A stretch of 64,000 nt of DNA, from contig CM034606.1 in NCBI GenBank assembly GCA_020091685.1, positions 33,933,874 to 33,997,873 of the forward strand, written 5' to 3'. Positions 18,295 through 55,200 of this stretch are shown in pieces. The notes beneath the pieces were generated by a model. It saw only the letters and a program-made list of their open reading frames with translations, did not search any database and was not told where the DNA came from. The DNA is from Lutjanus erythropterus (Eukaryota; Chordata; Actinopteri; Lutjaniformes; Lutjanidae). Numbering within the stretch: the first letter of the stretch is position 1; the number at the start of each line of letters is the position of its first letter. Position numbers and translations under genes: made by a program.

Positions 18295-23400
<5,106 letters not shown>

Positions 23401-26352: not shown

Positions 26353-26430
26353 GGCGACGGAGCTTAAAGGCGCTGCGTTTGTGGCACAAATTCCCACAGA
26401 AATTTTAGGTGTATGGCTGTTTCCACTTAC

Positions 26431-27245
26431 CTTTAGTGTCTGAAATGGCTTTCATCAATAACCACAAACTCTTTCTGCCCTCCCAGTCTCTGTCCTTTTC
26501 TTCTCTTCTTTCTCTCCATTGCCTCAACACAGACATTTCATAGCTTTTTGTCCATCTTTGACAGTGTTCTTCAACTCCCAGCAATGTCATCTGTCATCAT
26601 GTCGATTTGTCTCAATCGTAGGCCTTGTGCAAACCTTAAAAATACATAAAATGAAAATGTTGTGGCCTTATTCAGACAATACTTAAGCAATTACACTTGG
26701 GAGGGCATTCTTTACTATGACAATGGGCATGACAGTGATTCAAGGTACAGCCCAGCAATGTCAGCATTACCGATGTGCCAAAGTTTCATGATGATGGAAC
26801 AAACTGCATGGAGCTATGATCAATATTGCCTCCCTCAGTAAAATAAATGAAATAGACAATAATTGGAATAGAATTCATCTGGAAAGAAAGCACATCTTCC
26901 CTATACATCTCAGAGGGGGCCTCTACAAAAACGCTCTGGAATGGTTTTCTTTTAACAGACTGCTTATGCTTATAGCATATGTGACTATATACCGTAACCC
27001 ACCTCTGGCTTTTAGAATAGGACATAGGAAATCTAAATCACAGGCAATGTGATTCTTTCTGTTAATTTAGATTATTTCTATGTTATTTAAAAAAAACACA
27101 TCCAGTAGATATTTTAGTATTATTTCCATACCTGTACAAGAATCGCATCCAGTTGAAAAGGCTCATCTTGGATTTGCTGAAGATAGACTTGTGCCGGACT
27201 GATTTTGTGACAACGCCTTTGTGGTTGGTCCTCTGTTGACAAACC
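26431..27245 (-). pseudogene. Merlin-type transposase remnant in copy A (exons 2 and 3)
   Basis: Exon 2 is 27245-27132 (114 bp) and gives VCQQRTNHKGVVTKSVRHKS then IFSKSKMSLFNWMRFLYR, the zinc-ribbon end and following helix of Merlin/IS1016-type transposases. Its frame is intact, whereas copy B lost 14 bp here. Exon 3 is 26634-26431 and gives FAQGLRLRQIDMMTDDIAG, a TGA, TLSKMDKK, a TGA, then LGGQKEFVVIDESHFRH and a TAA. VIDES carries the first catalytic Asp. Exons 1 and 4 are absent from this copy. The three stops are shared with copy B. Confidence 0.85.
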
Positions 27246-28218
27246 CTATGAACAACACAGCTACTTATGAGTGATCTATTGAAATTCAAAAGATAAACCA
27301 TAATTGCTGTGATCTATGTTTAAAACCTTTCCAAAGTTTTTTCTTTCTCCTAAAAAACTACTTCCTACATTCTTCAAAATTAAAATATAATTTGAATATT
27401 TAACATAAAAAGCATTAGAAATTTGAATCTGATTTGGGGGGAAGATTGACAGCCCTAAATATGATACTTTAATACTTGTTGTTAGAATAGATTAATGTTC
27501 ATAATATATTTTAACTGGCATTGATGTTTCTGGGTGTCAGCCTCTGAGCAGCAGGTGTGTAGCCACCAGCCAATAATAATGCACAGGCTGTGAGTGCAGG
27601 AATCTATAAAATTGTAGCAACCATATTACACGTCTGTCTGTGCCATAGATGTGTAAAGAGCTGAAGGTGTCTGCATGTGTGTGCGTGATGGTGGTCATAC
27701 ACATACTCACGAACAACAAACCCACATGTGGGCGCTCACGCATCCAAAACAGAGAAACAACAGCGACAGTTTCAACTGAATTAACAGACTCAGCGGTGTG
27801 GTGCGTTCCTGCAGGTTGTGTGGAGGTGAACTTGTGGTAATTTATGATTTAGAACATAACCACGGTGAAACAGTGGGGAAAATAAAGTTTGATTTCTTTG
27901 ATTTCACTGCTTCTTTCTGTTAACGCTCTCTCCACTGATTGTCTGCCTCGCTAGACCATCGCCGCTTTGGAGAGGTGCGGCTCTGAATTCTGTGTTCACA
28001 GACAGTCTGTAAACAGTAGTGATGACGTTATTTCAGTAAAGTAGACTAACAAATGTTGGTACGCAAATGAGCCTTTTCACGTGTTGTCTGGTGCACATTT
28101 TTTATTTTGACCACCCATGTGCACCTGCACACCAGTTATGTGCACCCCTGGTTGTTATTATTTTTATTATTGTTGTCATTATTATTATTTACACTACACA
28201 ATTTTCTCTTCTTTTTAG

Positions 28219-29791
28219 GCCAGGCTAATGCTGTAGTGACTGAGTCGTCATCATCATCTGCAACCCCCTCATCAGCCACCTCCTCCTCTTCATCTGCCGA
28301 CTCCAACTACTCCTCCTCCTCCTCCTCCTCCTCCTCCTTTTCCTGAGAGGAAAAAAAGAAAACGGTACAAAAGAATAGGGACAAAAAAAGAGCCATGTCG
28401 AAAAGGGGAAGAAGAAGAAAAAGAAGAAGAAGAAGAAGGTGACAAAAGAAAAGACATCAGTTGGCAGAAGAGGTGAGTAATGGGACGGTTTCTATTAAAA
28501 AAGTTTTATTGATGTTAGATTAGAAATCTGAAACATTTGTTTCTTAGGGATGTACATTTTGGTTTGAAATTCTAACCATTTCATTACTCATCTAACATAG
28601 CCTATCATTTAAATGAGAAGTTCACAAAAAATATAAAAGAGAAAACACCAACATATTTTTCCTCTTCCCCAGAGTGATATCAATCCATCAAGATTGTCTC
28701 TGTGTGATATGGCAATGTTCAGAGACATCAGCTGTAGAGATGTCTACTATCACCCCAATACAATGGAGATGAATGGCATTGGGTTTGTGGTGCTTGAAGT
28801 GTGAAAAAATACATTGGACAAACTTGAAGGCAATGTTTCCTTACAGAAATCATGACCCGCTAATTCAAGATTATCCACAGTCATTGTTGTGAGCAGTTTC
28901 ATAGAGAACTATTTTCTACCAAAGATGACTGACATAATAGTTTTGAGCTAATTTCTTTTACTACTAAATTAGATTACTGCAGTAGTAAGCACAGCAGTTA
29001 GATATACATACAAATATAAATATTTGTGATGATTTAAGAGCAGTGGTGGCTGGTGAAGTTTTCTCCAGGGGGGGCTATACCAAACTTCAAAATTAAAATT
29101 GACTATTAGTCTATATTATATAGGGTCCATTCTAAGGTGTGTTCCCCACTTTTTTGCACAATATAGAACAACAACTACCATTAACAACATTGTAAAAAAA
29201 AAAACAACACCACACAATTAGGGCCAGCTTCTATCTCACCTCTGTTCACTCTGAAGATCAGCTGGGCGTCACAGCTGGGCGTCACAGCTGCTGCTACTGC
29301 TGCCACTATGGCGGGTGGTGGTGTGTGTTACAGTTCATTTGGGTTCTTATAATAGAATAACACTCTTTGAGTAAATATCGACATGTTGGCCGCAGCTTTA
29401 CTTTACTGGGGACGTCAGGTGAAGAGATAATAACTCAGGCATGAGCAATCGAACATCGAACATGTCAGCCCAGGTCTTTCAAACGATATCAGAGTATATC
29501 ACGGTATCACGGCAAAGATACTCTATTACTATCCGTCTTTAATCGCGGTATGTGGTGTGTTTCATTTACAATGGAAGTGGGAACTTGGAGCTTAGAATCC
29601 TGGAACTTGCCATAGCTTGATCAGATAAGTTTGAAAAACTAATGGCAGGATTCCATAAAAGAGATAAGATAGCCGACTTTGTCAGCAAATTTGAATACAT
29701 GATCCAAAATGATGCAGAAGTCAGGGCCAACATAGCTAAAAATAAAGCAGTGGGTAAGCTCATACCATATAGCAAAAGGGAGCAGAAGTAA
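28219..29791 (+). pseudogene. Accessory gene of the transposon, copy A (two exons left)
   Basis: I do not recognise this protein. Exon b starts after TTCTTTTTAG at 28219 and gives QANAVVTES followed by a Ser-rich stretch ending at a TGA (28344-28346). In another frame the same exon runs on as a Lys/Arg/Glu-rich stretch (PFPERKKRKRYKRIGTKKE) to a good GTGAGT donor at 28473. A later exon holds MAGFHKRDKIADFVSKFEYM, QNDAEVRANIAKNKAVGK, and LIPYSKREQK before TAA at 29789-29791. The same texts occur inverted in copy B with few changes. The first exon is missing in A. Confidence 0.5.
28650..28921 (+). mobile_element. MITE fragment inside copy A
   Basis: It begins ACATATTTTTCCTCTTCCCC and includes CAATACAATGGAGATGAATG and AGAAATCATGACCCGCTAAT. 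It is the internal part of the same MITE family as 16101-16230 and 53806-54383. It is present at the matching place in copy B (41386-41640), so it predates the duplication of the element. Confidence 0.7.
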
Positions 29792-30269
29792 TCAGTTGGG
29801 CAGCCGGCTGCCATGATGTTGGAAGTTACATATGTTATCCAAAAAGCTTAAACATGACCACTAGCCACTGTACCTTATTTATTAATACAGAATAGTAGGC
29901 TACTGTTAAGTCATTTTCACTGTTATTTTTCCTTTGATTTTAAGACAAACATTTGTAAAATTAGAGGTGCACAAATTCACTTCTGATGTGTCTTTTCCTT
30001 TTATCAGGCCATAATTTTTCTTTCACATTCATGTTAAATATTTTAAAATAATGTTTGCATGGCAATTGCAGTTTTGTAATAAAGGTTTTACTGATTATCT
30101 GTTGTTGACTTTTTACGTCTCTCTTTCTCCCACCCTGTTTATTTGTAGTGCAGTGCTGCAAATCAACATTGACTTTAAGGTTTGTTCAGAAATGTGTTCA
30201 GAAAAGTTGATCATAAAAATTAACTGCAATTCTGTTATTGGTGAACAAATGAGCTCTCTAAGAGATCAC

Positions 30270-30917
30270 CAATAAAAGTTTTAATGAAGTCAAATAAATG
30301 TTACTTGATGGTTTACAAACAGCTTATTAATCATTAAATAATTATTATAGACATCAGTCACAACTTTACAATAACGTCTAAGTAATGTTTATAGATGGTT
30401 TATAAACAAATTATTAACCATTTACAAAGTATAACAAATATCTGTTGCAACTTTACAATAACCATCTAAGTAATATTTATAGATGGTATATAAACCAAAT
30501 ATTAACCATTTACAAAGTGCTACAAATAAAATGTCTTCTACATATTTAATCTTTATAGATGTTTTACAACCAATTTCTTAAAGGTATATAAATCATTAAC
30601 AGACACTTAATATAGTGTTAAAAATGTTATGAGTGCAACTATAAACTGTTAATAAATAGTCCATTAATAATTAATAAACATTACTAATTATAATTTAATT
30701 GTTTGATAATGGTAAAGACACTATTAACTTACATTAATAAAATAAATATTTGCCATTTAGAAATTATTGTTAAACATTAATAAATAATCTATTTACCATT
30801 TATAAATGGTTTATATGCAGTTTATAAATGATTATTAAACATTAATAAACTATCTGTTAATCATTTATAAATGGTCTCTTTACCATTTAGAAATGATGGT
30901 TATTGTAAAGTGTTACC
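30270..30917 (+). repeat. Terminal repeat of transposon copy A (inner end)
   Basis: It runs from GATCACCAATAAAAG to the terminus GTAAAGTGTTACC. It is built of degenerate AT-rich units such as AACCATTTACAAAG and TTTATAGATGGTTTATAAAC. The same sequence occurs inverted at 38394-38965 and, shortened, at 45366-45493, which makes it the terminal inverted repeat of the element. Confidence 0.8.
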
Positions 30918-32388: not shown

Positions 32389-32552
32389 CACTATTAGTTT
32401 GTAAGGGGGCACAGAATCCATCAGTCTTTCAGTAGTGCAGAATAAGTAGGGTTGAGACATAACGAGGTAATACATCTGAGAATATACCGTGTAATACACA
32501 AAACACAGTTTTACTTTGATACAGACTTTTTGGGTTGACAGAAAGCTAAAAA

Positions 32553-34217
32553 ATGAGTGAGCAGGAGTCACAGGACACAATTGCAGCCCTCAACAACGAG
32601 CTCAGTGTCCTCTACATGTTAAACAGCGACCTCACCAGACAGAATGAGGGCTACCTCAAAGACATTGAGAGACTTCGCCAACAAGTCTACCGCTCTAAGA
32701 ATATGTCCAAAAGAGCTCTTCAAATAGAGAATGAAGCCTTTCGCCGTCAAAAAGAGGAACTCCAGCAGGAGGTTGAGACCCTGCGCAGTGAAAACCACTC
32801 TCTGCGCATGGAAAATGGGGGCCTGGAAACAGAGAAGAAGACCTTGCACCGTAAAATAGAGCCCATGGAGCAAAAAAAATACTTTCTGCAGAAGCAAGTT
32901 CAGCAGCTAAATGTAAGTCTGCACTCCCTGCGCATGGAAAATGGGGGCCTGGAAACAGAGAAGAAGACCTTGTCCCGTAAAATAGAGACCATGGAGCAAG
33001 AAAAAGACTTTCTGCAGAACCAAGTTCAGCAGCTAAATGAAAGTCTGAAATGTCAGACAGAGCTGAATGCACAAGAGCGTCGTGTCATGCAGGACAAATA
33101 TCAAACAACCAATCATGACAATGAGACTATTACCCAACAAAACAGGGCCCTGAAACAAGAACTTGAGGAGATGAAGAAAAGGTTTTGTGATGCAGAAGAG
33201 ACCAGTAGACAAAAGACTGAAGTTCTTCAAGAAGCAGCTCAGAAGATGAAAAATATTCTGCAAGAATCTGAAAACAGCCATACTGCAATGACCCAAAAAG
33301 CCACATCTGTGATACAACAAATCACCACCGTGGAACTAAATGTTCTGCAAGACCTCAAAGATGTTCAACACAACTATAATGTGTTGAAGCAGATAAACAA
33401 GTCTATGAAGCAACGGAATGAGGCCCTGGAAAAAGAACTTGAGGAGGTAAACAAGAAGTTGAGTGATGAACAAAATGCCATGAAAATGAAAGACAAAGCT
33501 ATTCAAGAAGAAGCTCGGGAACTCAAAAGCATTGCGGAAGAACTCAGACTCTACGATAATGTCACGAAACAAGAAATTATGTCTATGAAAGAACAAAACA
33601 AGGCCCTGGAACAACAAAACAAAGACCTTACCAATAAGTTGTGTGATGATCAAGAGACCAGTAAACTACAGAATGAGGCTCTTCAACAGCAGGTTGTGGA
33701 GCTCACATCCATTCTGCAAGACCTCCAACACAACTATGATGTCAAGGATGAAGTAATTACGTCTATGAAACAACAAAACAAGGCCCTGGAAGACGTAGTC
33801 AAGGACCTGACCAAGAAGCTGTGTGATGGACAAGAGGCCAGTAAACGAGAGACTGAGACTCTTCAACAGCAGGCTCAGGAGCTCAGAAACACTCTGAAAG
33901 ACCTCAAACATAAATATGATGTCAAAAACCATGAAGGCATATTTATGAGACAGCAAAATATGGCCCTGACACAAGAAATCAAGGACCTTAAGAAGCTGCA
34001 TGATAGACAAGGAGACATGAAACAAAAGCATGAAGCTCTTCAAAAAGTAGCCGAGGAGATGAAAAATGTTCATCAAGACCAGGTCGTCCAGAGAGAAAGC
34101 CTGTCCATTAATGACACCCCAGAAGAGTGCGCTTCTAAAATCAGACTTGTGGCTGATGAAATTGATACAGATGTGTGCAAAAAGAGCAGGGCAAGACATT
34201 GGTTTCCTTTCTGGTAA
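32553..34217 (+). CDS. Intronless coiled-coil protein, 554 residues (unrecognised)
   Basis: This is a single uninterrupted frame from ATG (context AAAAAATGA) to TAA. The predicted protein is nearly all charged helix, rich in Glu, Lys, Gln and Leu, with no membrane segment or catalytic motif. Residues about 84-167 contain a 42-residue unit twice (LRMENGGLETEKKTL start; the 126-bp DNA units begin at 32802 and 32928). From 33401 four units of exactly 180 bp follow, at 33401, 33581, 33761 and 33941, each opening with (S/F)M(K/R)xQN or a close form and carrying a KxLCD/KLxD motif. The C-terminus is distinct: NDTPEECASKIRLVADEID then ending HWFPFW. Two AATAAA signals follow. It lies in the spacer between two inverted transposons. 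It could be a retrogene, a lineage-specific gene or transposon cargo. I cannot assign a function. Confidence 0.75.
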   Translation: MSEQESQDTIAALNNELSVLYMLNSDLTRQNEGYLKDIERLRQQVYRSKNMSKRALQIENEAFRRQKEELQQEVETLRSENHSLRMENGGLETEKKTLHRKIEPMEQKKYFLQKQVQQLNVSLHSLRMENGGLETEKKTLSRKIETMEQEKDFLQNQVQQLNESLKCQTELNAQERRVMQDKYQTTNHDNETITQQNRALKQELEEMKKRFCDAEETSRQKTEVLQEAAQKMKNILQESENSHTAMTQKATSVIQQITTVELNVLQDLKDVQHNYNVLKQINKSMKQRNEALEKELEEVNKKLSDEQNAMKMKDKAIQEEARELKSIAEELRLYDNVTKQEIMSMKEQNKALEQQNKDLTNKLCDDQETSKLQNEALQQQVVELTSILQDLQHNYDVKDEVITSMKQQNKALEDVVKDLTKKLCDGQEASKRETETLQQQAQELRNTLKDLKHKYDVKNHEGIFMRQQNMALTQEIKDLKKLHDRQGDMKQKHEALQKVAEEMKNVHQDQVVQRESLSINDTPEECASKIRLVADEIDTDVCKKSRARHWFPFW

Positions 34218-38100: not shown

Positions 38101-38393
38101 TGGATCATAGATAGTGAGATATTTGCTGTGCAGCTTTGATTCATTCAGCTTCCATTCTCTGGAGGCATTTTTGACCAAATGCCGATGTCTCATTTTACCA
38201 ATTAGCAAACATTCTCCATAAGATGTCTCGCCAATGCAACTTTATTCAGTTTATGTGTGCTATCTGGGTTAAAGTATATTTTAAAATGAAAGCAAATGGT
38301 TACAAGGTCAAATGATGTCATAAAAAAGGGGAGGTTGTGCACATCCAGAGATCTTAAAATGAACTGAACACAGAAGATATTCCAAAGCATCGG
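35169..38393. other. Spacer DNA, right part
   Basis: It holds fragments of common fish repeats, among them GGGTTTCTGCAGGTCCTTAA at 36.77 kb, TCCAACACACCTCATTCAGA at about 36.98 kb, and a copy of the ATTAATCGATTAAT-type repeat at 37.06-37.27 kb. A candidate terminal exon at 37.83 kb is listed separately. No other gene is visible. Confidence 0.5.
37825..37980 (+). other. Possible terminal exon of an unidentified transcript
   Basis: A good polypyrimidine tract and acceptor (TTTTTCTCCCCCTTGCAG) precede a GC-richer stretch (GCTCATAAGTCTGCCAGCAG). AATAAA at 37951-37956 follows. No upstream partner exon is certain, though 37414-37473 also has a CCTGTAG acceptor-like start. It could equally be a repeat tail. 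Confidence 0.2.
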
Positions 38394-38965
38394 TAACACT
38401 TTACAATAACCATCATTTCTAAATGGTAAAGAGACCATTTATAAATGATTAACAGATAGTTTATTAATGTTTAATAATCATTTATAAACTGCATATAAAC
38501 TATTTATAAATGGTAAATAGATCATTTATTAATGATATATTTTATAAAAGGCAAATATTTAGTTTATTAATGTAAGTTATTAGTTTCTTTACCATTACCA
38601 AACAATTAAATTATAATCAGTAATGTTCATTAAATATTAATGAACTATTTATTAACGGTTTATAGTTGCACTCATTATAACATTGTTAACACTATATTAA
38701 GTGTTTGTTAATGATTTATATACCTTTAAGAAATTGGTTGTAAAACATCTATAAACATTACTTTGATGGTTATTGTAAAGTTGCAACAGATGTTTGTTAT
38801 ACTTTGTAAATTGTTAATAATTGGTTTATAAACCATCTATAAACATTACTTAGCTGGTTGTAAAGTTGTGACTGATGTCTATAATAATTATTTAATGATT
38901 AATAAGCTGTTTGTAAACCATCAAGTAACATTTATTTGACTTCATTAAAACTTTTATTGGTGATC
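38394..38965 (-). repeat. Left terminal inverted repeat of copy B
   Basis: This is the inverse of 30.27-30.92 kb. It starts GGTAACACTTTACAATAACC and consists of degenerate ATTTATAAATGATTAA-like units, ending near CTTTTATTGGTGATCTC. Its length with internal sub-repeats is unusual for a Merlin-type element. Confidence 0.8.
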
Positions 38966-39289
38966 TCTTAGAGAGCTCATTTGTTCACCACTAACAGAAC
39001 TGCAGTTAATTTTTATGATCAACTTTTCTTCACACATTTCTGCACAAACCTTAAAGTCAATGTTGATTTGCAGCACTGCACTACAAATAAACAGGGTGGG
39101 AGAAAGAGAGAGACGTAAAAAGTCAACAACAGATAATCAGTAAAACCTTTATTACAAAACTGCAATTGCCATGCAAACATTATTTTAAAATATTTAACAT
39201 GAATGTGAAAGAAAAATTATGGCCTGATAAAAGGAAAAGACACATCAGAAGTGAATTTGTGCACCTCTAATTTGACAAATGTTTGTTAT

Positions 39290-39795
39290 AACTGCTCCTA
39301 AAGTCTTCTTCTTAGACAGAGAAGCCACGCTCCAACTGATGTTTGACCAGTATTTATTGTCTTCTTTTTTACTTAGCAAACACCGTGAAAAACTGAAATA
39401 AATTACCACAAACAGAAGCATCTATTAGCACACAAAATAATACACAAACATAAAATATTATAAGGCAAAATAAAACACAAACACATACCATGTGCGCCTT
39501 CCTTCCAGAAATTTAGGAGTCAATCAAAATCTTCATGCACAGCTATTCTTCTGTGTAAAATCTTCCTGCATGTGGCCTCTACCAGCAGAACACACTCTGC
39601 CACTCTCTTATAAACTGTTGAGCATGTGAATAGAGCATGCTGCCTACACAGTACAATGGTTTGGCCAATAGATGTCGCCACTGCTTCATAAACAAGGTAC
39701 ACCATCAAAAAACTATTTACAATATAATCTCAAGACAAAAAGAAAACAAAAACATTCAAATCTCTTGAGATACACATTTTCTGAGTCAGCTACAT
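39290..39795. other. Insertion of about 0.5 kb present only in copy B
   Basis: Copy A reads straight through ACAAATGTTTGTCTTAAAA at this point, whereas copy B carries extra DNA beginning TATAACTGCTCC and ending TCAGCTAC. No inverted ends or coding content are recognised. The bordering ATTTGT/TTTGT words may be a short target duplication. Confidence 0.5.
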
Positions 39796-39953
39796 TTGTC
39801 TTAAAATCAAAGGAAAAATGACAGTGAAAATGATTTAACAGTAGCCTACTATTCTGTATTAATAAATAAGGTACAGTGGCTCGTGGTCATGTTTAAGCTT
39901 TTTGGATAACATATGTAACTTCCAACATCATGGCAGCCGGCTGCCCAACTGAT

Positions 39954-42788
39954 TACTTCTGCTCCCTTTTGTTGTATGGTATGAGCTTACCCACTACTTT
40001 ATTTTTAGCTATGTTGGCCCTGACTTCTGCATCATTTTGGATCATGTATTCAACTTTGCTGACAAAGTCAGCGAGATAAAAGTGAGTAAAATGTGTCACC
40101 TTCAATAAAAATGTAGATTAAACATGTTCTATGTTGTCTAAAGTTACCAATCGCTCACGTGTTTACGCCTTGGGGCGCAGAAATCTTTGCCCATAGACTC
40201 TCATTATAATTTGTACATGTGCAGTAGCTCCTCTTCAATACAAGAGATAGGAGCTCCTCGGGGCGCAGCTCTCCTGATCTCATTGATGGTGCGTTCAGGT
40301 GTACTTGAGGGTCGGAATTTCTAACATCCTACATTTAATTTTATTAATTATCCATTTTCCGACTTCCATGATGGTTTTACAAGTGAAAAGCACTCTACTC
40401 GGAGGCAACGTTGTTCTAAGCTCCAAGTTCCCACTTCCATTGTAAATGAAACACACCAAAATTAAAGACGGATAGTAATAGAGTTATTATCTCTTCACCT
40501 GACGTTCCCAGTAAAGTAAAGCTGTGGCCAACATGTCGATATTTACTCAAAGAGTGTTATTCTATTATAAGAACCCAAATGAACTGTAACACACACCACC
40601 ACCTGCCATAGTGGCAGACAGTGCATCTCAGCAGCAGCAGCTGTGACGCCCAGCTGATCTTCAGAGTGAACAGAGGTGAGATAGAAGCTGGCCCTAATTG
40701 TGTGGTGTTGTTTTTTTTTTTTAAAATGTTGTTAATGGTAGTTGTTGTTCTATATTGTGCCAAAAAGTGGTGAAGTTTGGTATAGCCCCCCCTGGAGAAA
40801 ACTTCACCAGCCACCACTGCTCTTACATCATCACAAATATTTATATTTGTATGTATATCTAACTGCTGTGCTTACTACTGCAGTAATCTAATTTAGTAGT
40901 AAAACAAATTAGCTCAATGCGCCAAGAATTACATTTGAAAAGCACATCTCATTCATTCATTCATTCATTTTCTGTAACCGCTTATTCCATAAGGGTTGCA
41001 GGGGTCTGGAGTCTATCCCAGCTGACATTGGGTGAGAGGTGGGGTTCACCCTGGACAAGTCGCCAGTTCATCGCAGGGCTGACACAGAGAGACAGACAAC
41101 CACTCACACTCACATTCACACCTACTTGCAATTTAGAGTCACCAATTAATGTCCAATGTCTTTGGACTGTGGGAGGAAGCCGGAGAACCCAGAGAGAACC
41201 CACACAGACACGGGGAGAACATGCAAACTCGACACAGAAAGGCCCTGCCCCAGCAAGCCGGGGAATCGAACTCAGGACCTTGCTGTGAGGCAGCAGTGCT
41301 AACCACTGCACCACCGTGCCACCCAAAAAGCACTTCTCTTTCCAGAAATTTATTATGACAGTCATCTTTGGTAGAAAATAGTTCTCTATGAAACTGCTCA
41401 CAACAATGACTGTGGATAATCTTGAATTAGCGGGTCATGATTTCTGTAAGGAAACATTGCCTTCAAGTTTGTCCAATGTATTTTTTCACACTTCAAGCAC
41501 CACAAACCCAATGCCATTCATCTCCATTGTATTGGGGTGATAGTAGACATCTCTACAGCTGATGTCTCTGAACATTGCCATATCACACAGAGACAAACTT
41601 GATGGATTGATATCACTCTGGGGAAGAGGAAAAATATGTTGTTGTTTCTCTTTTATATTTTTTGTGAACTTCTCATTTAAATGATAGGCTATGTTAGATG
41701 AGTAATGAAATGGTTAGAATTTCAAACCAAAATGTACATCCCTAAGAAACAAATGTTTCAGATTTCTAATCTAACATCAATAAAACTTTTTTAATAGAAA
41801 CCGTCCCGTTACTCACCTCTTCTGCCAACTGATGTCTTTTCTTTTGCCACCTTCTTCTTTTTCTTCTTCTCCTTTTCGACATGGCTCTTTTTTTGTCCCT
41901 ATTCTTTTGTACCGTTTTCTTTTTTTCCTCTCAGGAAAAGGAGGACGAGGAGGAGGAGGAGTAGTAGTTGGAGTCGGCAGATGAAGAGGAGGAGGTGGCT
42001 GATGAGGGGGTTGCAGATAATGATGACGACTCAGTCACTACAGCATTGGCCTGGCCTAAAAAAAAGAGACAATTGTGTAGTGTAAATAATAATAATGACA
42101 ACAATAATAACAACCAGGGGTACACATAACTGGTGTGCAGGTGCACATGGGTGGTCAAAATAAAAAATGTGCACCAGACAACACGTGAAAAGGCTCATTT
42201 GCGTACCAACATTTGTTAGTCTACAGAACACGATTGAGAACACACCTCAATGGAGAATGAATGAATGAATGAATGTTTTTTTTACAAACTGCATCAAACA
42301 AACCTCCAGACCCTACCTTTAACAAGGAACAGTGTGAACCGGACAAAACTAATTTACAACAAAGTGTTATTTTTTCCTTTTTACCGCAAACTTTCAGATA
42401 TGAAAATAAACATTAGCAGCTAACATTAAGCTAGTTAGGCTAAAACAAGTGCTAACAAATCAACATTAGCTAACTTACCGACAGTCTGAGATTCGTCTCT
42501 CCTGTCAGCATCAAGGGTGTCGCTGGAAATATAAAAATCCTCTTCGTCATCTTGGATAGTCTCCGTCAAATTCTTGCATTCACCGCCATCGCTACTGTCG
42601 GCCACCATGGTGCTAGTGTCAGGTGCTGTTGGCTGTGTTTTTTCTCTCCACACCAACATGTCTTCTTTTACGGCTTTTCCAGATCTGGTGAAAGGTCTTT
42701 TGGGCACGGTGAGACAAAATTTTACAGAAAAAAAATCTGTGAAGTTGCATGCACATTGCAGGAGGCTGTTGTTGGCAAGAGACAACAT
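39954..42788 (-). CDS. Accessory gene of the transposon, copy B (spliced, unrecognised)
   Basis: Three exons can be supported. Exon a (to 42479) holds KRPFTRSGKAVKEDMLVWRE, then an acidic stretch (IQDDEEDFYISSDTLDADRR) ending DESQTV plus one base at a GTAAGTTA donor. Exon b starts at 42055 after TTTTTTTTAG and joins in frame as GQANAVVTESSS. It is a Ser-rich stretch that ends at a TGA (41931) or, in another frame, continues as a Lys/Arg-rich stretch to a GTGAGT donor near 41821. A later exon ends ADFVSKVEYMIQNDAEVRAN, then KNKVVGKLIPYNKREQK with TAA at 39956-39954. The start codon is uncertain (42788 or a later Met such as MVADSS). It is divergent from the transposase. Its acidic-then-basic composition could suit a nuclear or DNA-binding partner; this is inference. 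Confidence 0.45.
40951..41325 (-). mobile_element. Full-length tRNA-like SINE with (ATTC)n tail, inserted in copy B
   Basis: Read on the minus strand it starts GGGTGGCACGGTGGTGCAGT, has a GAGTTCGATTCCCC B-box-like motif, and ends in a (GAATGA)/(ATTC)-type tail (plus-strand ATTCATTCATTCATTC at 40951). Direct repeats AAAAGCACATCTC (40938-40950) and AAAAGCACTTCTC (41326-41338) flank it, with one mismatch. It is absent from the matching place in copy A, so it inserted after the copies separated. Confidence 0.88.
41386..41640 (-). mobile_element. MITE fragment inside copy B
   Basis: This is the counterpart of 28650-28921 in copy A, with CATTCATCTCCATTGTATTG and GGGGAAGAGGAAAAATATG on the plus strand. 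Confidence 0.7.
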
Positions 42789-42941
42789 CGTCTGAATCGG
42801 TCTGAATCTGCATGAAAAGTGATGCTGCGTTCTAGTACAACTTGGAGGTCATAAATTACCGCTTCTGAGTAGGAAAAATAGAATAACAGCCACTTTGCCT
42901 GTGACCTGTGACCTCATGGCCCATTTTTGGCTCATGGAAAA
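42789..42941. promoter_or_regulatory. Candidate bidirectional promoter between the two transposon genes
   Basis: About 150 bp separate the first candidate Met of the minus-strand accessory gene from the plus-strand transposase ATG (42942). No TATA box is evident. The role is inferred from the divergent layout alone. Confidence 0.3.
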
Positions 42942-45051
42942 ATGCCGGGTTTAGCCACTGAAATGAGAGACTTAATTGAAGGTTCTAGGTCTAAAAGAAA
43001 ACACTTCTTGAAACTTATAAAATGGCTACAAAAAAGAAAGCTTCTCAAAACAAAGAAAATGAAATGCAACATTTGCCAACACAAAATGAAGATGAAGGAC
43101 TGCAGTCGGGAGATTTATGTAAAGTAAAGTTACCCAATCTCCCTTGAATTAACTTAATCTGCACCAGATTACATCACAGTATTAATTCATTAGGTTATTT
43201 ATTTATTTATTTGTTTGTTTGTTTGTTTACTCTTTATGTATTTACTGCCTTATCTATAATAATATTACTATCTATCTATTTTTCTATCTATCTACATATT
43301 TTGTTAATTCTTCAAAAATGTTCATTTTTAGATAGTCATCACATTGTAACAAATTTTTGGAAAGGTTTTAAACATAGATCACAGCAATTATGGTTTATCT
43401 TTTGAATTTCAATAGATCACTCATAAGTAGCTGTGTTGTTCATAGGGTTTGTCAACAGAGGACCAACCACAAAATCAGTCCGGCACAAGTCTATCTTCAG
43501 CAAATCCAAGATGAGCCTTTTCAACTGGATGCGATTCTTGTACAGGTATGGAAATAATACTAAAATATCTACTGGATGTGTTTTTTTTAAATAACATAGA
43601 AATAATCTAAATTAACAGAAAGAATCACATTGCCTGTGATTTAGATTTCCTATGTCCTATTCTAAAAGCCAGAGGTGGGTTACGGTATATAGTCACATAT
43701 GCTATAAGCATAAGCAGTCTGTTAAAAGAAAACCATTCCAGAGCGTTTTTGTAGAGGCCCCCTCTGAGATGTATAGGGAAGATGTGCTTTCTTTCCAGAT
43801 GAATTCTATTCCAATTATTGTCTATTTCATTTATTTTACTGAGGGAGGCAATATTGATCATAGCTCCATGCAGTTTGTTCCATCATCATGAAACTTTGGC
43901 ACATCGGTAATGCTGACATTGCTGGGCTGTACCTTGAATCACTGTCATGCCCATTGTCATAGTAAAGAATGCCCTGCCAAGTGTAATTGCTTAAGTATTG
44001 TCTGCATAAGGCCACAACATTTTCATTTTATGTATTTTTAAGGTTTGCACAAGGCCTACGATTGAGACAAATCGACATGATGACAGATGACATTGCTGGG
44101 AGTTGAAGAACACTGTCAAAGATGGACAAAAAGCTATGAAATGTCTGTGTTGAGGCAATGGAGAGAAAGAAGAGAAGAAAAGGACAGAGACTGGGAGGGC
44201 AGAAAGAGTTTGTGGTTATCGATGAAAGCCATTTCAGACACTAAAGGAAGGTAAGTGGAAACAGCCATACACCTAAAATTTCTGTGGGAATTTGTGCCAC
44301 AAACCCAGCGCCTTTCAGCTCCGTCGTATTGGAGTGGAGGCAGACATCTATATGGCAGATAAAAAAAAAAAAAACAAAAAAAAAACAGCAAATCACACCA
44401 AAACTATCAAGGTGGACAGACAGCACTCTGGGCAAGAGGAAAAATATATTTTGCTTTAATATTGGGTGAGACAGATGTATGAGTAGGAAAAGATTGGAGC
44501 TGTATCTGTGGGTTTTGTCACTGTATGAATATGAGGTAAGGAGACTAATGCTCACTATTGCTGACAGCAAATTTGAAAACATTGTCATGAGAAAACTAGG
44601 ATTGGCTGATACAATGGTGGGGGTGAATCCATACTTACAGGGATATAATAATTTTATATCTCAAATTTTATGTTTTAATGGTCAAATGATTACCATATAT
44701 TAGTCAGGCATCATCATGTGAATAACTACCATTTTTAATATGTGTTCTATTTGAATATTTTGACAGTATGGACGTGAAAGAATGGTTGGTGGGTGGACAC
44801 GGAAAAAGTGGGTGTTTGGAATGCTGGGTGTGAAGCACACAGGACAGAAGACGATGCCTGTTCATCGCTTGGTGGAAAGACGGACCAGACGAGAGCTGAT
44901 CCCACTGGTTCTGCACCATGTTCGGACGGGATCCACAATACTGACTGATGAGTGGCGGGCTTACCGTCAGGCTCTGCCTGAATTTGGATACAAGCATTAT
45001 ACAGGTCCATTGGGACGCCTGCTCCATGATATTACAAAGCAGTACAAATAG
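42942..45051 (+). pseudogene. Merlin/IS1016-type DDE transposase, copy B (decayed, four exons)
   Basis: Merlin transposases cut and paste DNA with a DDE nuclease after binding the inverted ends. Exon 1 (42942-43123) has KLIKWLQKRKLLKTKKMKC and a CxxC zinc-ribbon half. Exon 2 (43446-43545) has KSVRHKSIFSKSKMSLFNWM but carries a 14-bp deletion relative to copy A. Exon 3 (44043-44250) has FAQGLRLRQIDMMTDDIAG, LGGQKEFVVIDESHF, and stops TGA, TGA and TAA. Exon 4 (44767-45051) joins in phase as KYGRERMVGGWTRKKWVFGM and has GSTILTDEWRAYRQALPEFG, the second catalytic Asp. The C-terminal block with the catalytic Glu is missing, replaced by GPLGRLLHDITKQYK and a stop. All introns follow GT-AG. It cannot make an active protein as it stands. 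Confidence 0.87.
44275..44470 (-). mobile_element. MITE fragment in transposase intron 3 of copy B
   Basis: Read on the minus strand it contains TATTTTTCCTCTTGCCCAGA, GATAGTTTTGGTGTGATTTG and AGATGTCTGCCTCCACTCCA, the internal text of the TTAA-flanked MITE family. Homology with copy A ends within this MITE, at about 44335. Confidence 0.7.
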
Positions 45052-45365
45052 ACAAATAAATGATGCCAAGAAGGCAACACGTTGACATTCCAGAGTGCTT
45101 TGTTGTTTATTGTTAATTTGTGGAAATATGGGGTTAGTATGAAATATTTTAATTTGCAGTGTGCCTGAATATTGTATCCTTAATTGATTTTAAAACTAAG
45201 TTGTCATTGTTGTGTTGGAATCCCACCATTCTTGTCTACCACCATGTTTATCTGTTGTATAGTGTTGCATGTTATTGACCCTCTGACCCCCTGTTCATAA
45301 ATGTGTTCAATACAATGATCAGACCCTATTCTTTTATCAATGCAAAATAATCACTCTGTTTTAGA

Positions 45366-45493
45366 TCACCAATAAAAGAAGTCAAATAAATGTTATTTGA
45401 TGGTTTACAAACAGCTTTATTAATCATAAAATAATTATTATAAACATCAGTTGCAACTTTACAATAAACCAACTATTAACCATTTACAAAGTA
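45366..45493 (+). repeat. Right terminal repeat of copy B (shortened)
   Basis: It starts ATCACCAATAAAAG and ends AACCATTTACAAAGTA, in the same orientation as the inner end of copy A and inverted relative to 38394-38965. One internal unit and the extreme terminus (GTAAAGTGTTACC) are missing. Confidence 0.75.
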
Positions 45494-46868: not shown

Positions 46869-47404
46869 CTACAGAGAACATAGAGACATTGAGGAATCAG
46901 GCCACCATACACCAAACCCAGGATAGAGAGGTTCAGTGAATGTGTTATAGAAGGTGTGGAGGTGGATCAGCGTGTCAGAGGACACTGTGTAGAAGGACAG
47001 AGTGCCAGCAGGATAGTCCACGTACACTGCTACTCTGTTAGAGACAGAGTATGAGGAGGAGATGGGTGTTCCAATGACATTGTGAAAGACGGTGTAACCA
47101 TCATCAGAGCAGCTCATTCTCCAGGACTGGTGGTTCTCCCCAAACCTGCAGTCAGACCTGTCTCCTCTCCTTTTGATCCCTCTGTAAGCCACCGCTATAG
47201 AAACACTTCCTCTCCACTCAACCTCCCAGTAACAGCGACCAGTCAGAGCATTTGTACACAGCAGCTGAGGACAGCACCAGTCAAATCTGTCTGAGTGATC
47301 AGGATAGAGCTGATCCTCCTCCATGTTTGTTGCCTTCCTGTTGTCGTCAGACAGTTTGATCTTTCTGTTTACTGTGTTTGCATCGATTGTGAGTTCACAA
47401 GAAT
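46869..47404 (-). CDS. NLR gene, PRY/SPRY (B30.2) last exon
   Basis: It opens after CTCTCTATCAG. The PRY part has [20 protein letters not shown] and [20 protein letters not shown]. The SPRY part has [20 protein letters not shown] and [13 protein letters not shown]. The exon is complete to the stop and has no frameshift, so the ligand-binding end is preserved. Confidence 0.92.
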
Positions 47405-50400
47405 CTGATAGAGAGAACACAACACAGCTGCAGTTATTAATCTATCATCTGTTCGTTTGCTGACAGTTTGATGGTGACATCAGAGATCTGAATGAGTGAT
47501 GTCTCAGCTTGAAGATGGTTGAATTTATGCTGCTACGTTTTCATGAATCAAGTTCACAACACACTTACACTTCCTCAGACCTGGTTTCAACCATTGGACT
47601 CCAGCAGGCTCCAGCCTGCAAAGTAAGAGAGATATCAGATCAGCATGTAAACATGAACATTACATCACTCTCATATAGTTTTGTTTTTCTGTTTGATTGC
47701 ATTTCCACATGATCACAGGTATATGTGTGTTTAAGGCTCATTATCATCTGTTCTCATTAATTCTTATTTGATTTTCATACCACCTGTCTAAGGTGTGACA
47801 GGATAGCATAGCTATTTTAAAAGGATCTGGTATTTATGGGTTTTTTTGATTATAAAGAAAAAATAACATTCAAGAAAGACAAATTATCAATATTTTGAAG
47901 TGCCACCAGGTAAAAAACATTATAAACATAATAAACCTAATATAATAAACGTGCAATACTGATTATATATCAGATTTTTTTAAAGGAATTAATGAAAAAC
48001 ATTTCATTTACTGATGAATTTGTCACATAAGAAAACATTTTCATATGAACCTCTTACCATATTGAGAACTGATTGAATCTGAAGCGGTCTTTCCAAACCA
48101 TTTATTACCAAATGCAAATTTAAATGTACTTAAAATTTCCTTTGATCATCAGTAAATCGTGTTTTAGGTTTAGTATTTTCTCAATTGTGAATGTATTAGG
48201 GAGAACTGAATACTGCAGTCAATGTTGCCACACCATTCATTTATAAAAGCTGCTCACTGATAGCACAAGCAGAAAAAGCCTCGCAGGACTTCCTTATGCT
48301 TCTGGGTTTTGGGGCCCATACAGCATACTCAGTGGAGTCCCTCTGCACAAATAATGTAAATGAGCTGCAGCTGCAGTTCATTTGAATAAACTGTTTGAAT
48401 GAACAGGAGCTCTCTGCCACTGAACTTTTGAGCTAACAAGAAGAGACTATAGGTACTAAAATCATACACTCTTCCTGTATGAAGGAAACAGCCTGATGTT
48501 GTTAGCTCAACAGCTTTTTATAAGATCTGTTCTTGATCTATTCTTTATTCCTGTTCTCTACATATAAAAACACTGTTTCACAAGATTGGATTTTTATTTG
48601 TCTTTCCATATCAATTTTTAAAAACTCAGCATCACTTGAGGAAACACAATCAGTTGGACCAGACAGTCTGCCTTTGTTAGCTTGTTGTGTCAGGGTCATA
48701 TGACCCAGGCCAACAATGTGACAGAAAAAAATGTTTCCAGCACTTCCTCTTCTATCAGACAGACTGTCTGTGGCTACAGCAGGCCTCTTTGTACCTGAGA
48801 ATGTCCAGCCTCCAGAGTGGGTTCTTTTGTCCAGCAGTTAGCAGCTTCACTCCTCTGTCTCCTGGATTATTGTAGCTCAGGTCCAGCTCAATCAGATGCG
48901 AGGGATTGGAGCTCAGAGCTGAGGCTAGAGACTCACAGCCTTTCTCTGTAATCAGACAGCCTGACAACCTGCAAATACACAAAACAGGACATGTGGCAGG
49001 TCATTTGAGAGTACTGTGAGGATTGAGGTAGTGATATTAACGACTGAAGAGCAACATTTAGTGACAACACACTTTGTTTAAGAATTTAAACACATAAACT
49101 CCAAAAAGAAGAACTGACGAAGACAGAGGCTGTTGAAACTGCATGGAGATAACAGTGGAAAAAGCACAAATCTATCATTACAAACTAATTCAATCAAACC
49201 TGAGAGTCTCCAGTTCACAATGTGTAATCTCCAGTCCAGCAGACAGCAGCTTCACTCCTGAATCCTGCAGGATGTTGTTACTCAGGTCCAGCTCTCTCAG
49301 AGTAGAGGACTGGGACCTGAGAATTGCGGACAGGGCTTCACAGCTTCTCTTTGAGAGGTTACAGCCACTCAGTCTGGAGAGACAATAAAGAGCAAGACAA
49401 ACAGGTCATTATTATTGAACTTGGATTATACAGGCATGATTTAACTTAAATTACATGATATCAATACTTCAATGGGCCTTTTCAAATCAGCTATGGATCC
49501 TATTTGTTTTCTGTATAAGACAATTCAGTGCAAAATGCAACATGGAATATTCTCTGTAGAGTGAAATTTGCAATCCTGATGTATATGACTAAATGGTGAT
49601 AAACAGTATATTGGCATGTGAGCTTTTTCAGTAGGCTGCACACAAACCTACTGTACAGATACTGTAAGGCCACAGTGTTAAAAATAATAATTGTCCTAAG
49701 AAAGCTACTCAAAGGCCTACAGAAAGTAGGTAGGCACTAGGTCAAAATGTCCAAAGGCACACAAATCCAAATGAATGGGCAAAACACAAACATCCGGCTA
49801 AAACAGTCAGAGTCTAACAAAGCATAAGTCCACACAGGGAAAACACTTGAGATGAGGCTAAGACACTTGGCATGAATGCCTTAGACAAATTGGCAACAAA
49901 AGGAGGGTATAAATACACAAGGAGGCTAATAGTGCTCAGATGAAAAAAAAGACTAAAACAGGAAGTAAACAAAGACACAAGAGTGAAGACTCATACCAAA
50001 ATAAAACAGGAAATAAATGAAGTGATCTCAAAAACCATGGTATAAATAGCATCTCATAATCTGAGGCCATGGTACACGACTGGAAAATAGTGAATTGCTC
50101 CCTTTAGATTGGGAGTTAGTCACTGTACCATATAAAGAAGCTAAAGTATCTTCATAAGTCATGTTCACCAGCAAGGTTAAGATGGAACATGAGCAGGTAG
50201 ATTGGTGATTGGTGGAACTTTAACTGCTGTGACTGTTGAGGTGATCCATGTTCCAACCATCCACATTTAGTCATGTGCCTAAGGTAATATCTCAAACAAT
50301 AAAAATACTGTACAACCAGCAAAATACAATTTCTTTCAAGATGTCTGGGCAACAACTTCTAGATTTTTTGAGGGTCTTAGACATACAGAAGAAATTCTAA

Positions 50401-52257
50401 GTGTAAGTGGTGTTTTAAAGTCAGCAAATGGTTTAATAATTTGGGGCATCTGATTCAGATGCCTCTTGACACTCCCTAGGTTACTGGCATGTTCAACTTA
50501 CAGGAGACCATCAGAAAGACACTGAACTCCCTGGAGGAATAACTTGCCTCAGAATGAGGAGGGCATGGCTAGACATTAGGAGGCATGGGATACTTATACT
50601 TTACTGAGCCTGCTGCCTTTGTGACCAAGACCTGGATAAGTGATGGAAAATAGATGGAAGGATGTAAATCCTGACCTTAGTTTTTGAAATTGCATAGATC
50701 TAAATGAGACATGTCACAAATCAGATTAAAAAAACAATAACTTCATCTTACCTGAGAGTTCGCAGTGTACAGTTTGGACTCTCCAGTCCAGCAAACAATA
50801 GATTCACTCCTGAATCCTGTAGGTCATTATTACTCAGGTCCAGCTCTCTTAGACTAGATGACTGGGAGCTGAGAACTGTGACCAGAGCTTCACAGCTTTT
50901 CTCTGAGAGGTTACAGCCAATAAGTCTGGAGAGACAATGTAAAGTTAACACAAAGGTGCTGAAAAGATAGTCAAGTATTTAAAATATTTTCAGTATATAC
51001 AAATATCCATGTGCTTACAGAGATTGCCTGGAGGCTTTGACCACTGGCATGAGAAACAAAAGAGCCTCCTCTGAAGCAGAGAACTTCTTGAGATCAAACG
51101 TGTCTGGATCATTTTCTGATGACAGCAGGATGAATACCAGTGCTGACCACTGAGCAGGAGAGAGTTTCTCTCTGGACAGTCTTCCTGAGCTCAGGTACTG
51201 TTGGATCTCCTCCACTAATGAATGATCATTCAACTCATTCAGACAGTGGAACAGATTGATGCTTCTTTCTGGACAGGGGTTCTCCTCTATTTTCGCCTTA
51301 ACATACTGAACTGTATCCCGATTGGTCTGTGAGCTTCTTTCTATCTGTGTCAACAGGCCTTCTAGAAGAACCTGATTAGTTTGCAGTGAAACACCCAGGA
51401 GGAAGCGAAGGAACAAGTCCAGGTGCCCATTTGGACTCTGTAATGCCTTGTCCACAGCACACTGGTAGAACTGTGTCTCTGCAGATTCATCAATTCTTGT
51501 TTCGGACTTCTGGAGGGGTGTTTTTTCTTCTGACAGCAGATTGACACCAGTGTTGATGAATGTCAGATGGACATGAAGAGCTGCCAGAAACTCCTGAACG
51601 CTCAGATGGACGAAGCAGAAGACCTTGTCCTGGTACAGTCCTTTCTCCTCTTTAAAGATCTGTGTGAACACTCCTGAGTACACTGAGGCTGCAATATCAC
51701 ACTTTGTCAGGTCAGATTCATAGAAGACAAGGTTGCCTTTCTGCAGCTGCTCAAAAGCCAGTTTCCCTAGAGATCCAATCATTTCTCTGCTCTGTGGATT
51801 CCAGTGCTGGTCGGTCTCAGTTCCTCCATCATATTTGACATTCTTCAGTTTGGACTGAACCACCAAGAAGTGGATGTACATCTCAGTCAAGGTCTTGGGC
51901 AGCACTCCCCTCTTTCTGGTTTTTATCACATCCTCCAGGACTGTAGCAGTGATCCAGCAGAAGACTGGGATGTGGCACATGATGTGGAGGGTTCGTGATT
52001 TCTTGATGTGGGAGATCACTCTGCTGGCCTGCTCCTTATCTCTGAACCTCTTCTTGAAATACTCTTCCTTCTGTGGGTCAGTGAACCCTCTGACCTCTGT
52101 CACCATGTCAACACAGTCAGGAGGGATCTNGAGATTTGGTCTGGCGGCCATGTTCCTCACACAGAGTGGTTTTAGAACGAAGGCCACCCTCCTCCCCGTC
52201 CTCAATCTGATTCATGCTGCTGAGCTCACTTCCACATCAGCTCACACACACTTTCAC
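46869..52257 (-). CDS. Fish NLRC3-like NLR gene (NACHT-LRR-PRY/SPRY), NACHT incomplete
   Basis: Cytosolic innate-immune receptor of the expanded teleost NLR-C group. Exons on the minus strand: N-terminal piece 52257-52131 (ATG at 52215, [20 protein letters not shown]); NACHT C-terminal part 52129-51019; LRR exons 50925-50752, 49373-49200 and 48968-48795, each 174 bp; a 47-bp linker 47615-47569 ([15 protein letters not shown]); PRY/SPRY 47404-46869 ([20 protein letters not shown] to SSMSLCSL stop). The junctions keep frame, for example [21 protein letters not shown]. The FISNA region, Walker A and Walker B of NACHT are absent: the N-terminal piece meets [18 protein letters not shown] at the undetermined base 52130, and the two sides are in different frames. 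So this is either a collapsed assembly gap or a truncated gene. Confidence 0.88.
47569..47615 (-). CDS. NLR gene, 47-bp linker exon
   Basis: The acceptor is CTTACTTTGCAG and the donor GTAAGTGT. It encodes [15 protein letters not shown] plus one base, which with AT of the next exon makes Tyr and gives KYSCELT. This short exon between LRRs and PRY is typical of fish NLR-C genes. Confidence 0.85.
47616..48794 (-). other. NLR gene intron, no further LRR exon seen
   Basis: AT-rich intron of 1.18 kb between the last LRR exon and the linker exon. I looked for additional 174-bp LRR units and did not see one. Confidence 0.6.
48795..48968 (-). CDS. NLR gene, LRR exon 3
   Basis: It encodes [20 protein letters not shown], then [20 protein letters not shown]. 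The [13 protein letters not shown] pattern is the usual penultimate or last ribonuclease-inhibitor-type repeat of the group. Acceptor is TTTGCAG, donor GTACAA. Confidence 0.88.
49200..49373 (-). CDS. NLR gene, LRR exon 2
   Basis: It encodes [20 protein letters not shown] and [20 protein letters not shown]. The donor is GTTTGA, weaker than the GTAAG and GTAC donors of the sister exons. Confidence 0.88.
50435..50670 (+). repeat. Decayed retroelement fragment in an NLR intron
   Basis: Phrases such as GGGGCATCTGATTCAGATGC, CTCAGAATGAGGAGGGCATG and GACCAAGACCTGGATAAGTG resemble the 3' end of a dispersed fish non-LTR element. It is heavily decayed. Confidence 0.4.
50752..50925 (-). CDS. NLR gene, LRR exon 1
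   Basis: It encodes [20 protein letters not shown] and [20 protein letters not shown]. Acceptor GTCTCTCCAG, donor GTAAGA. It is 174 bp, the same length as its two neighbours. Confidence 0.9.
51019..52129 (-). CDS. NLR gene, NACHT C-terminal half and helical domains
   Basis: It starts inside the TTRPAAANQ-IPPxCVDMV block, after the ATP-binding motifs, with [20 protein letters not shown]. Then come the winged-helix/NAD2-like blocks ([60 protein letters not shown]) and the pre-LRR block ([40 protein letters not shown]), ending KASRQSL at a GTAAGC donor. The frame is open throughout. Confidence 0.9.
52131..52257 (-). CDS. NLR gene, N-terminal exon start (cut at an N)
   Basis: The acceptor is TTTCCTCTCCAG. 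A short leader precedes ATG at 52215, then [20 protein letters not shown] and EHGRQTKS, the usual opening of fish NLRC3-like proteins. The frame then reaches the undetermined base 52130 and soon stops if read through, since the next segment is in another frame. Confidence 0.7.
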
Positions 52258-55200
52258 CTGGAGAGGAAATAAAAATCAGAGATCGCAGACTGTAAACACC
52301 TTGTCTCACCCGTGTCTGTAGGAGAACCTATGGACATGGGTTTTCCAGGACATTTTCGGTGTTTCACAGTTTTTTTTTCCCAGGGACCCCCTTTTAAAAA
52401 ATGACAAACCATCACACTAGGCCTCATCAATAAATGTTAATAGTTCATTTGTGCATAAATGAACATTCCTGACTATTTTACTGCCATTTCTACATCACAC
52501 ACATACACATTTCAAATGCTTCATAAAAGGTGTGCTTTGGATAGAAATCATAAATTTGCAGAATTTCTTCTGTGGTCTTCTATTTATTTGGCGACCCAAA
52601 TAAAATCTCCTGTGACCCAGCTGTGGGTCACGACCCAGTCTTTGGAGATGACTGATCTAGCTGGTATGATAGACAGGGATCGTGCCATACACTGATATGT
52701 TGCTCTGATTTAAAAGACATGTAGTCTACAGCTTACATATGAAATCATTTCTTGCATATAAATTAACAAATTGACAGATTGACTATCTAACACTAATATA
52801 TCCTCTTACAGTTCTTTGTTGCTGTTTATTTCTTGCCTGTATCCCCCTTTTCTAATGAATTCTATCAACCATTTGCTGCCTGTGGCTGCAACTAATGATT
52901 ATTTTTTATTATGGATTAATCTGCAGAATATTCTCACATTTAATCGATTCTTTGATTAGTCTGTTGTGATAAATGCTCATCAAAATATCCCAGAGCTTCT
53001 TTTGTCCAACAAACAATCCAAAACCCAAAGACTCTTCATTTACAATCATAAATGACAAAGAAAAGCTGCAAATCCTGACATTCAAGAAGCTGGAACTCCC
53101 AAATGCTTTGCTTGAAAAATGACTGAAGTGATTAATCATTTATCAAAACAGTTGACTGTTACTTTCGATTGTTCTTGTCATCATGAATTCCTCTTGATGT
53201 TGCAAAGTTGACACACACAAACACAATTTCACAATTTCCTGCTATTATTCAAACCAAAGTTGTTCAGTAATGACTGTATATTTCATTAGTTTGAAGAGAT
53301 TTTGAGTTTTGAAAAATAAATTACACTTCATAATAGCGTTGACATTGTCCTGTTTGACTACATTTCAAATTATAATATCATTGTAAAATTACACATAAAA
53401 CCTACATTATTGATTTAATGACACATTATTACCTGCTGTCAGGTGTAGTGACTGTATATCTGCACATGCAGGTTTATGAAGTCGCTGTGTGTGTCAGCTG
53501 CCATGATATGGCAAGATGTTTTTTTTCTTTGAAGCCATTTTCATATCAGGACAGTTCATCTTTATTTCAGTGATTAACTGTTCCAGCTCTGTCGCTGCCT
53601 GAACAACAATAACTGAATAGTCTTCGCACTAATAACACAAATAGTAGCCTATAATTCTGACTTCTTACAAATCTAGGCTGAAGTTCACATACTTAAGGTA
53701 TGATTCAACTTTATATTTATACATTCATTTATGTTTTTTCATATTTAATGAAGTAAATCACTCCCACTGAGACATACTGCTACAAAACCATGACAAACCT
53801 GCAAGGGACAAAATCAAAAATTCTTGTTTTTTCCCTGGCCTGTAGTTGTATTTATCTATCTAGGATGTTTTTGGTGTGAGTTGCAGAGTTTTGGAGATAT
53901 CAGTCATAACGATGTCTGCCTTCTCTCCAATATAATGGAACTAAATGGCACTCAGCTTGTGGCGTCAAAGAGCCCAACAAATACATCTGAAAAACTCAAA
54001 AACCAGCGACTCCTTCCAAAAATCATGGCCCACTTCCTCAAGGTTATTCTCAGACCTTGTTGTGAGCAGTTTCATGTAAGAAGTAAAGGTAGATTCCACT
54101 GCAGAAAATGAGTAGTTCCTTCATGAAACCGCTCACAACAAGGTCTGTGGATTATTTTAGTTGCCAGGTCATGATTTTTTGGAAAGAGACGTTGCTGTTG
54201 AGTTTTCCAAATGTATTTTTTGGCACATAGAGCTCCACAGGACCAGTGCAATCTAGTTCCAATATATCCAATTATATCTACAAACTCGCAATTCACACCA
54301 TAACAGTATAAATGGATAAACAGCAGTGTAACAGGATAAAGGAAAAATATGTATTCTTGATTTTGCTGTGAACTGTCCCTTTAAAACTTAGCTCACCTTT
54401 CAGTAGTTTAGTTGGCTGGTCTTAACTTTTATTTTAGTTACACACTTATTTCTTTTACCTCACATGCTTTTGTATTCATATTCATCAACTGTTGTTTTTA
54501 ACTATTTTATTTTATCTTAATATATTTTATCTTTTCTTCCTTTTAAATTGGTTTAATTCTTACAATTTAATATTTTATTGTTTGATTGCTGGTCTTACTT
54601 GATTTTATTCTGTATCTTAATTGGTTTTAATTCCAGTATTTTTTTATGCATCTGTGTTCATGGCTGAAAACTTTTGTCGTTCAGTCTCTGTGCAGCACAT
54701 TGTGCATCCACTTGGAATGAAATGTTCTATATAAATAAAGTTTTGCTTGCTGGCCTGCTTGCTTTAAACCTTTGCAAGCAAAACCTGGCAAGTATGTCAA
54801 CTTTAACATCTGAGCCAAACATGACCAGTTTAACACTATTCAAGCATTTAAATCAAGCCGAGAGGAACAACATAACAATTGATTATCAAACGACTACTAA
54901 ATTATTCACCAAATATTAAGATATCAACTATTAGAGTTATTTCTAAATAAAATTCCAGCTTCTTAAAAGTGAATATTTTCTGGTGTCTTTACTCCTCTCT
55001 GACAGTAAACTGAATATCTTTAAGTTGTGGACAAAACAAGACATTTGAGGACGTAATCATGAGCACTGATCAACATTTTTCACCATTTTCTGACATTTCA
55101 TGGACCAAACAACTAATCGATTACTTGAGAGAATAATCAACAGATCAGCAGATTTCTTTTTAATTTCTTTTTTTAATGTTTGGTCATTATTCACTTAAAT

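Follow-up and report, generated by a model that had tools for sequence, protein, structure and literature searches.

Merlin elements, in the parts of the sources covered here, encode a transposase alone. A 64,000-nucleotide stretch of Lutjanus erythropterus DNA (the window; positions count from its first letter) raises the question of whether a member of this superfamily has carried a second gene, since a sequence-only reading had placed a spliced accessory gene back to back with a Merlin transposase. The window contains two decayed copies, A and B, of a single family of Merlin-superfamily DNA transposons. The fuller reading, which we favour by a modest degree, is that these two copies also hold the remains of a probable second gene that is broken in both of them. 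The features on which this account is built are collected in Table 1.

Table 1. Positions of the element parts in copies A and B, given in window coordinates.
Feature	Position	Strand	Remark
Left terminal inverted repeat, copy B	38392-38966	+	about 575 bp; tip GGTAACACTTTACAATAACC
Right terminal inverted repeat, copy B	45363-45493	-	inner part only
Transposase exon 1	42942-43124	+	CxxC pair CNIC; frame reading, no Pfam match above cut-off
Transposase exon 2	43446-43545	+	lacks 14 bp present in copy A; out of frame
Transposase exon 3	44043-44250	+	VIDES block at 44215
Transposase exon 4	44767-45051	+	LTDEWRAY block at 44941
Putative accessory exon 1, copy B	42479-42788	-	acidic; donor GTAAGTTA
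Putative accessory exon 2, copy B	41817-42055	-	Ser-rich, then Lys-rich
Putative accessory C-terminal exon, copy B	39953-40072	-	KLIPYNKREQK, stop; 5' part not in B
Putative accessory C-terminal exon, copy A	29598-29791	+	longer 5' side
Copy A block with transposase exons 2 and 3, then truncated	26355-27335	-	
Copy A block with accessory exon 2	28041-28939	+	
Copy A terminal repeat and DNA directly inside it	29945-30917	-	

Copy B runs from 38392 to about 45493, and copy A occupies 26355-30917 in inverted orientation relative to it. The 20 bases that form the tip of copy B also start copy A, at 30917 on the minus strand, and these are the only two sites in the window that resemble the tip with three or fewer mismatches, where 0.02 such sites would be expected; both are exact. 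The alignment of A with B starts at the tip, and about 50 bases just outside it differ between the copies, so that A and B are best taken for two independent insertions of the same family. One outer end is missing from each copy, and the blocks that A and B share are collinear, with the accessory exon blocks lying in the same order inside the repeat. Over 38392-44326 of B and 26355-30917 of A, divergence between the copies is uneven: the two end blocks differ at 36 of 890 sites and the transposase block at 5 of 967 (p 9e-8), although the end-block figure may be inflated by misaligned sub-repeats. Such a pattern could come from gene conversion between A and B or from the assembly itself.

The left terminal inverted repeat of copy B had been put at 570 bp or more, a length that is borne out by the repeat of about 575 bp found here and by copy A, whose end matches this repeat at 85.6% across 563 columns in a single register (two sub-blocks agree at 95.0% and 96.6% of ungapped columns). 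The description of the ends as long and sub-repeated also stands, as units of about 22 bp and of 85-88 bp occur inside the left end of B. At the right end of B the outer part of the repeat, roughly 400 bp or more, is missing, and the inner part of the left repeat aligns there over 110 columns at 87%. The tip had no match in the published literature searched; the exact tip was absent from the prokaryote contigs searched, and neither it nor the repeat pattern occurred in the viral contigs searched. The hexamer AATAAA occurs at the inner edges of the repeats and was considered as a sign of two transcripts, but it was not used: the element is rich in A+T and the motif frequent in it, with 12 sites on one strand and 17 on the other where about 8 and 6 would be expected.

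The transposase was modelled as four exons separated by three introns, with joins picked by reading frame and splice-like sites and the donor of exon 1 taken as AAA/GTAAAG since this keeps the frame. Exon 4, which is unbroken, matches the Pfam domain DDE_Tnp_IS1595 above its cut-off (E 1.7e-8, 35.1 bits, cut-off 27), as a profile check suggested for the transposase had anticipated, and the joined exons give E 3.9e-9 as a query. The VIDES and LTDEWRAY blocks are present as well, and the assignment to Merlin holds. The zinc ribbon described earlier for the same protein is only half present, as the CNIC pair of exon 1 is followed in exon 2 by CQQR at the position of the second pair, and Pfam gave no IS1595 zinc model for the transposase, with zf-Sec23_Sec24 appearing below threshold only (E 0.034). 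Of the blocks ascribed to the transposase, then, VIDES, LTDEWRAY and the DDE domain are confirmed while a whole zinc ribbon is not.

A pattern search with exon 4 gave 47 matches in prokaryote contigs, one of them a relative, and 3 in viral contigs, none of which was. The likeness to bacterial IS1595 extends to 59% identity in the best segment, and 26% over the whole alignment, with a protein from a Bacteroidetes metagenome-assembled genome (L001). The element differs from the bacterial group in its NCBIfam IS1595 equivalog domain match (E 2.7e-13), which at 50.3 bits falls below the curated cut-off of 75, and in the introns of the present model. The domain match of exon 4 stops at profile position 98 of 153, whereas that of L001 reaches 153 of 153. 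Candidates for the first two acids of the DDE triad are present; the third is presumably to be expected in the profile stretch beyond position 98, which is missing in B, and copy A is truncated earlier.

In-frame stops in exon 3 at 44104, 44137 and 44242 are common to A and B, and toward its end this exon is 4 bp shorter in copy A. The transposase of both copies is dead, given the three shared stops, the frame-shifting indels and the missing end. The shared stops suggest that A and B either arose from a broken form or acquired its sequence by conversion: the source may already have been dead and would then have been moved in trans, or the stops may have spread by gene conversion. By analogy with the Merlin family, an intact relative would encode a transposase that binds to the long, sub-repeated ends and mobilises the element by cut and paste.

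In the part of PMC8101967 covered here, Merlin elements are described as having GG tips, terminal repeats of 24-462 bp and target duplications of 8-9 bp. The element in the window resembles them in its terminal 5'-GG (GGTAACAC at the surviving outer end of each copy), in its terminal inverted repeats, and in its DDE_Tnp_IS1595 domain. It differs in the length of the repeat, which exceeds the range in that part of the source, in the three introns of the transposase model and in its possible second gene; as regards the 8-9 bp target duplication, it is known from one outer end per copy. The reading as a Merlin family is based on the transposase domain, the GG tip, the long inverted ends and two insertions with unlike flanks.

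The putative accessory gene lies on the minus strand of copy B and is divergent from the transposase, the two starts being about 150-330 bp apart; an alternative, shorter start of its exon 1 lies at 42608 (MVADSS). Part of the earlier description of a back-to-back spliced gene stands, in that the reading frame continues from exon 1 into exon 2 when they are spliced at the donor GTAAGTTA and a T-rich acceptor. The frame then breaks in exon 2: it ends at a TGA (41931-41933) that is common to A and B, and the Lys-rich part of the exon, with its KKRKR run, is open in A and B alike only if a different frame is read, which in B runs up to a GTGAGT donor. We take the KKRKR run to resemble a nuclear signal. 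Exon 1 is found only in B, copy A having 705 bp of other sequence in its place. The C-terminal exon of copy A contains one in-frame TGA at 29618, and 341 bp adjoining this exon in B (40073-40413) are without a counterpart in A. The whole gene is present in neither copy of the window. What is left of it would be a first exon that is acidic, a second that changes from Ser-rich to Lys-rich and includes KKRKR, and a charged C-terminal exon.

It could be argued that there was no second gene and that chance frames and trinucleotide repeats happen to lie opposite a transposase-only Merlin, an explanation that we hold to be unlikely though worth weighing. The Ser and Lys runs of copy A are (CTC)n and (GAA)n arrays, with similar runs in B, which together with the frame breaks of exon 2 in both copies fits this explanation. 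A scan of the element for two-exon models found one on the accessory strand; the plus strand also gave one, distinct from the transposase join. Consensus splice sites with matching phase speak against chance, since a two-exon model on either strand arose in only 3% of 300 dinucleotide shuffles, but such models also occurred in 4 of 17 overlapping tiles of the window and in 2 of the 13 tiles outside copy B, and the limits of the scan were chosen with the model already known (the exon 2 frame has 122 bases, the limit being 120). The C-terminal exon, being charged and protein-like, likewise argues against chance: it and the short form of exon 1 score high for protein-like composition, with 25 of 476 and 28 of 1024 stop-free stretches, respectively, scoring as high. 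Neither the long form of exon 1 (74 of 476 stretches as high) nor the Ser-rich part (882 of 1214) stands out. The score is a poor judge, however, since real SPRY and NLR exons fall below both of the high-scoring accessory pieces. A precedent for chance comes from the covered part of PMC8101967, where a 1-kb antisense frame overlapping the transposase of a Symbiodinium kawagutii Merlin was judged by its authors to be probably fortuitous.

The near-identity of the last exon between A and B had been offered as support for a real gene, and this argument fails. The exon shows 5 differences in 120 sites against 3 in 158 of the adjoining DNA (p 0.30), and as it is no more alike than its neighbours the near-identity was rejected as proof of a gene. 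What survives of the accessory-protein proposal is the presence of the exon blocks, in the same order, in the repeat of both insertions. The two accessory exons that A and B share differ at 12 of 360 sites, compared with 74 of 2857 in non-exon DNA (p 0.39), and exon 2 is if anything more diverged than the DNA adjoining it (7 of 240 against 7 of 634, p 0.07), with the exon counted as 41814-42053, a shift of 2-3 bases. Divergence at the non-exon rate is also what chance frames would show. The non-exon figure is somewhat overstated, since a cluster of mismatches at 40604-40637 comes, in part at least, from the way a short tandem repeat of copy A (29259-29290) was aligned; without the block that holds the cluster (21 of 293) the figure becomes 53 of 2564, again no higher than that of the exons. 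The C-terminal exon has 3 changes in 95 replacement sites and 2 in 22 silent sites (p 0.24), a ratio below 1 that rests on five changes. The accessory exons thus give no sign of selection when A is compared with B. This comparison is uninformative on selection in an intact ancestor, because both copies probably go back to a broken form, by descent or by conversion.

Alternatively, the accessory exons could derive from a host gene, part of which was captured, or from a nested second transposon; in either case they would have been in place before A and B arose and have had no role in transposition. A single ancestral capture would suffice, as the accessory exons are common to both copies, and no known transposon protein scored above cut-off for the accessory pieces. 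No host family did so either, and between 36000 and 47500 no extra pair of inverted repeats with arms of at least 30 nt surrounds the accessory exons besides the ends of the element; we consider this origin improbable. The profile check proposed for the accessory protein returned nothing above the Pfam cut-offs for any piece, and exon 1 alone reached only L_lac_phage_MSP (E 0.13, below cut-off). The joined accessory query brought up SR-25 (E 0.00056), CCDC106 (E 0.025) and New_glue (E 0.061), all below cut-offs and set aside as effects of Ser/Lys-run composition, since the individual pieces gave none of them. For the C-terminal piece alone there was no match in NCBIfam and a best hit of only E 2 among PDB sequences, and neither this piece nor exon 1 matched viral contigs. 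The collections searched consist of prokaryote, phage, plasmid, viral and metagenome contigs, so the absence of accessory relatives from them says little.

A divergent second gene beside the transposase is plausible, though unproven, and the family is best pictured as a decayed Merlin lineage with long sub-repeated ends that may once have carried such a gene. The Harbinger transposase belongs to a superfamily other than Merlin. Two-gene layouts are reported for fish Harbinger and ISL2EU elements in the portion of PMC9179366 covered here, and the Harbinger elements of teleosts, which pair a transposase with a Myb-like protein, would share this layout with the present element if the second gene is real. 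The accessory pieces differ from the Harbinger partner in having no Myb/SANT-type match in Pfam. The product of a real second gene would most likely be a nuclear partner of the transposase, comparable to the Myb-like protein. Taken one step further, this becomes a tentative proposal, which we would put a little short of even, of a vertebrate Merlin lineage with a two-gene layout whose divergent, non-Pfam partner aids nuclear entry and the binding of the long sub-repeated ends. No Merlin with a second gene was noticed among the literature matches listed, going by titles and the starts of abstracts, nor is one mentioned in the passages of PMC4202319, PMC7599744 and PMC10045372 covered here. If the second gene is real, Merlin would join Harbinger and ISL2EU as a DDE transposase with a partner gene, and the reasons for which such partners evolve could be examined. 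For now, the window is above all a record of a Merlin family that has decayed and whose terminal repeats are very long.

Several other features of the window touch on the element or lie beside it. Copy B contains 433 bp (40918-41350) without a counterpart in A, which we take to resemble a common fish interspersed repeat, and AAAAGCACATCTC at about 40939 and AAAAGCACTTCTC at about 41326 lie near either side of this stretch. Both halves of a palindrome-like repeat at 53894-54252 are similar (72-74%) to 41379-41568, which falls within an intron of the accessory model, and 44297-44457 in a transposase intron is also related to that region (74-77%). On the minus strand, an exon with PRY-SPRY domains occupies 46872-47441 and an exon with NOD2_WH and NLRC4_HD2, containing one ambiguous base, occupies 51018-52211; both are presumably akin to exons of fish NLR receptors. 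An open frame at 19473-20636, also on the minus strand, matches CCDC85 (E 6.8e-65). A 555-residue frame at 32550-34214 has coiled-coil-type matches, with HALZ at cut-off, and contains internal tandem duplications of 126 and 180 bp.
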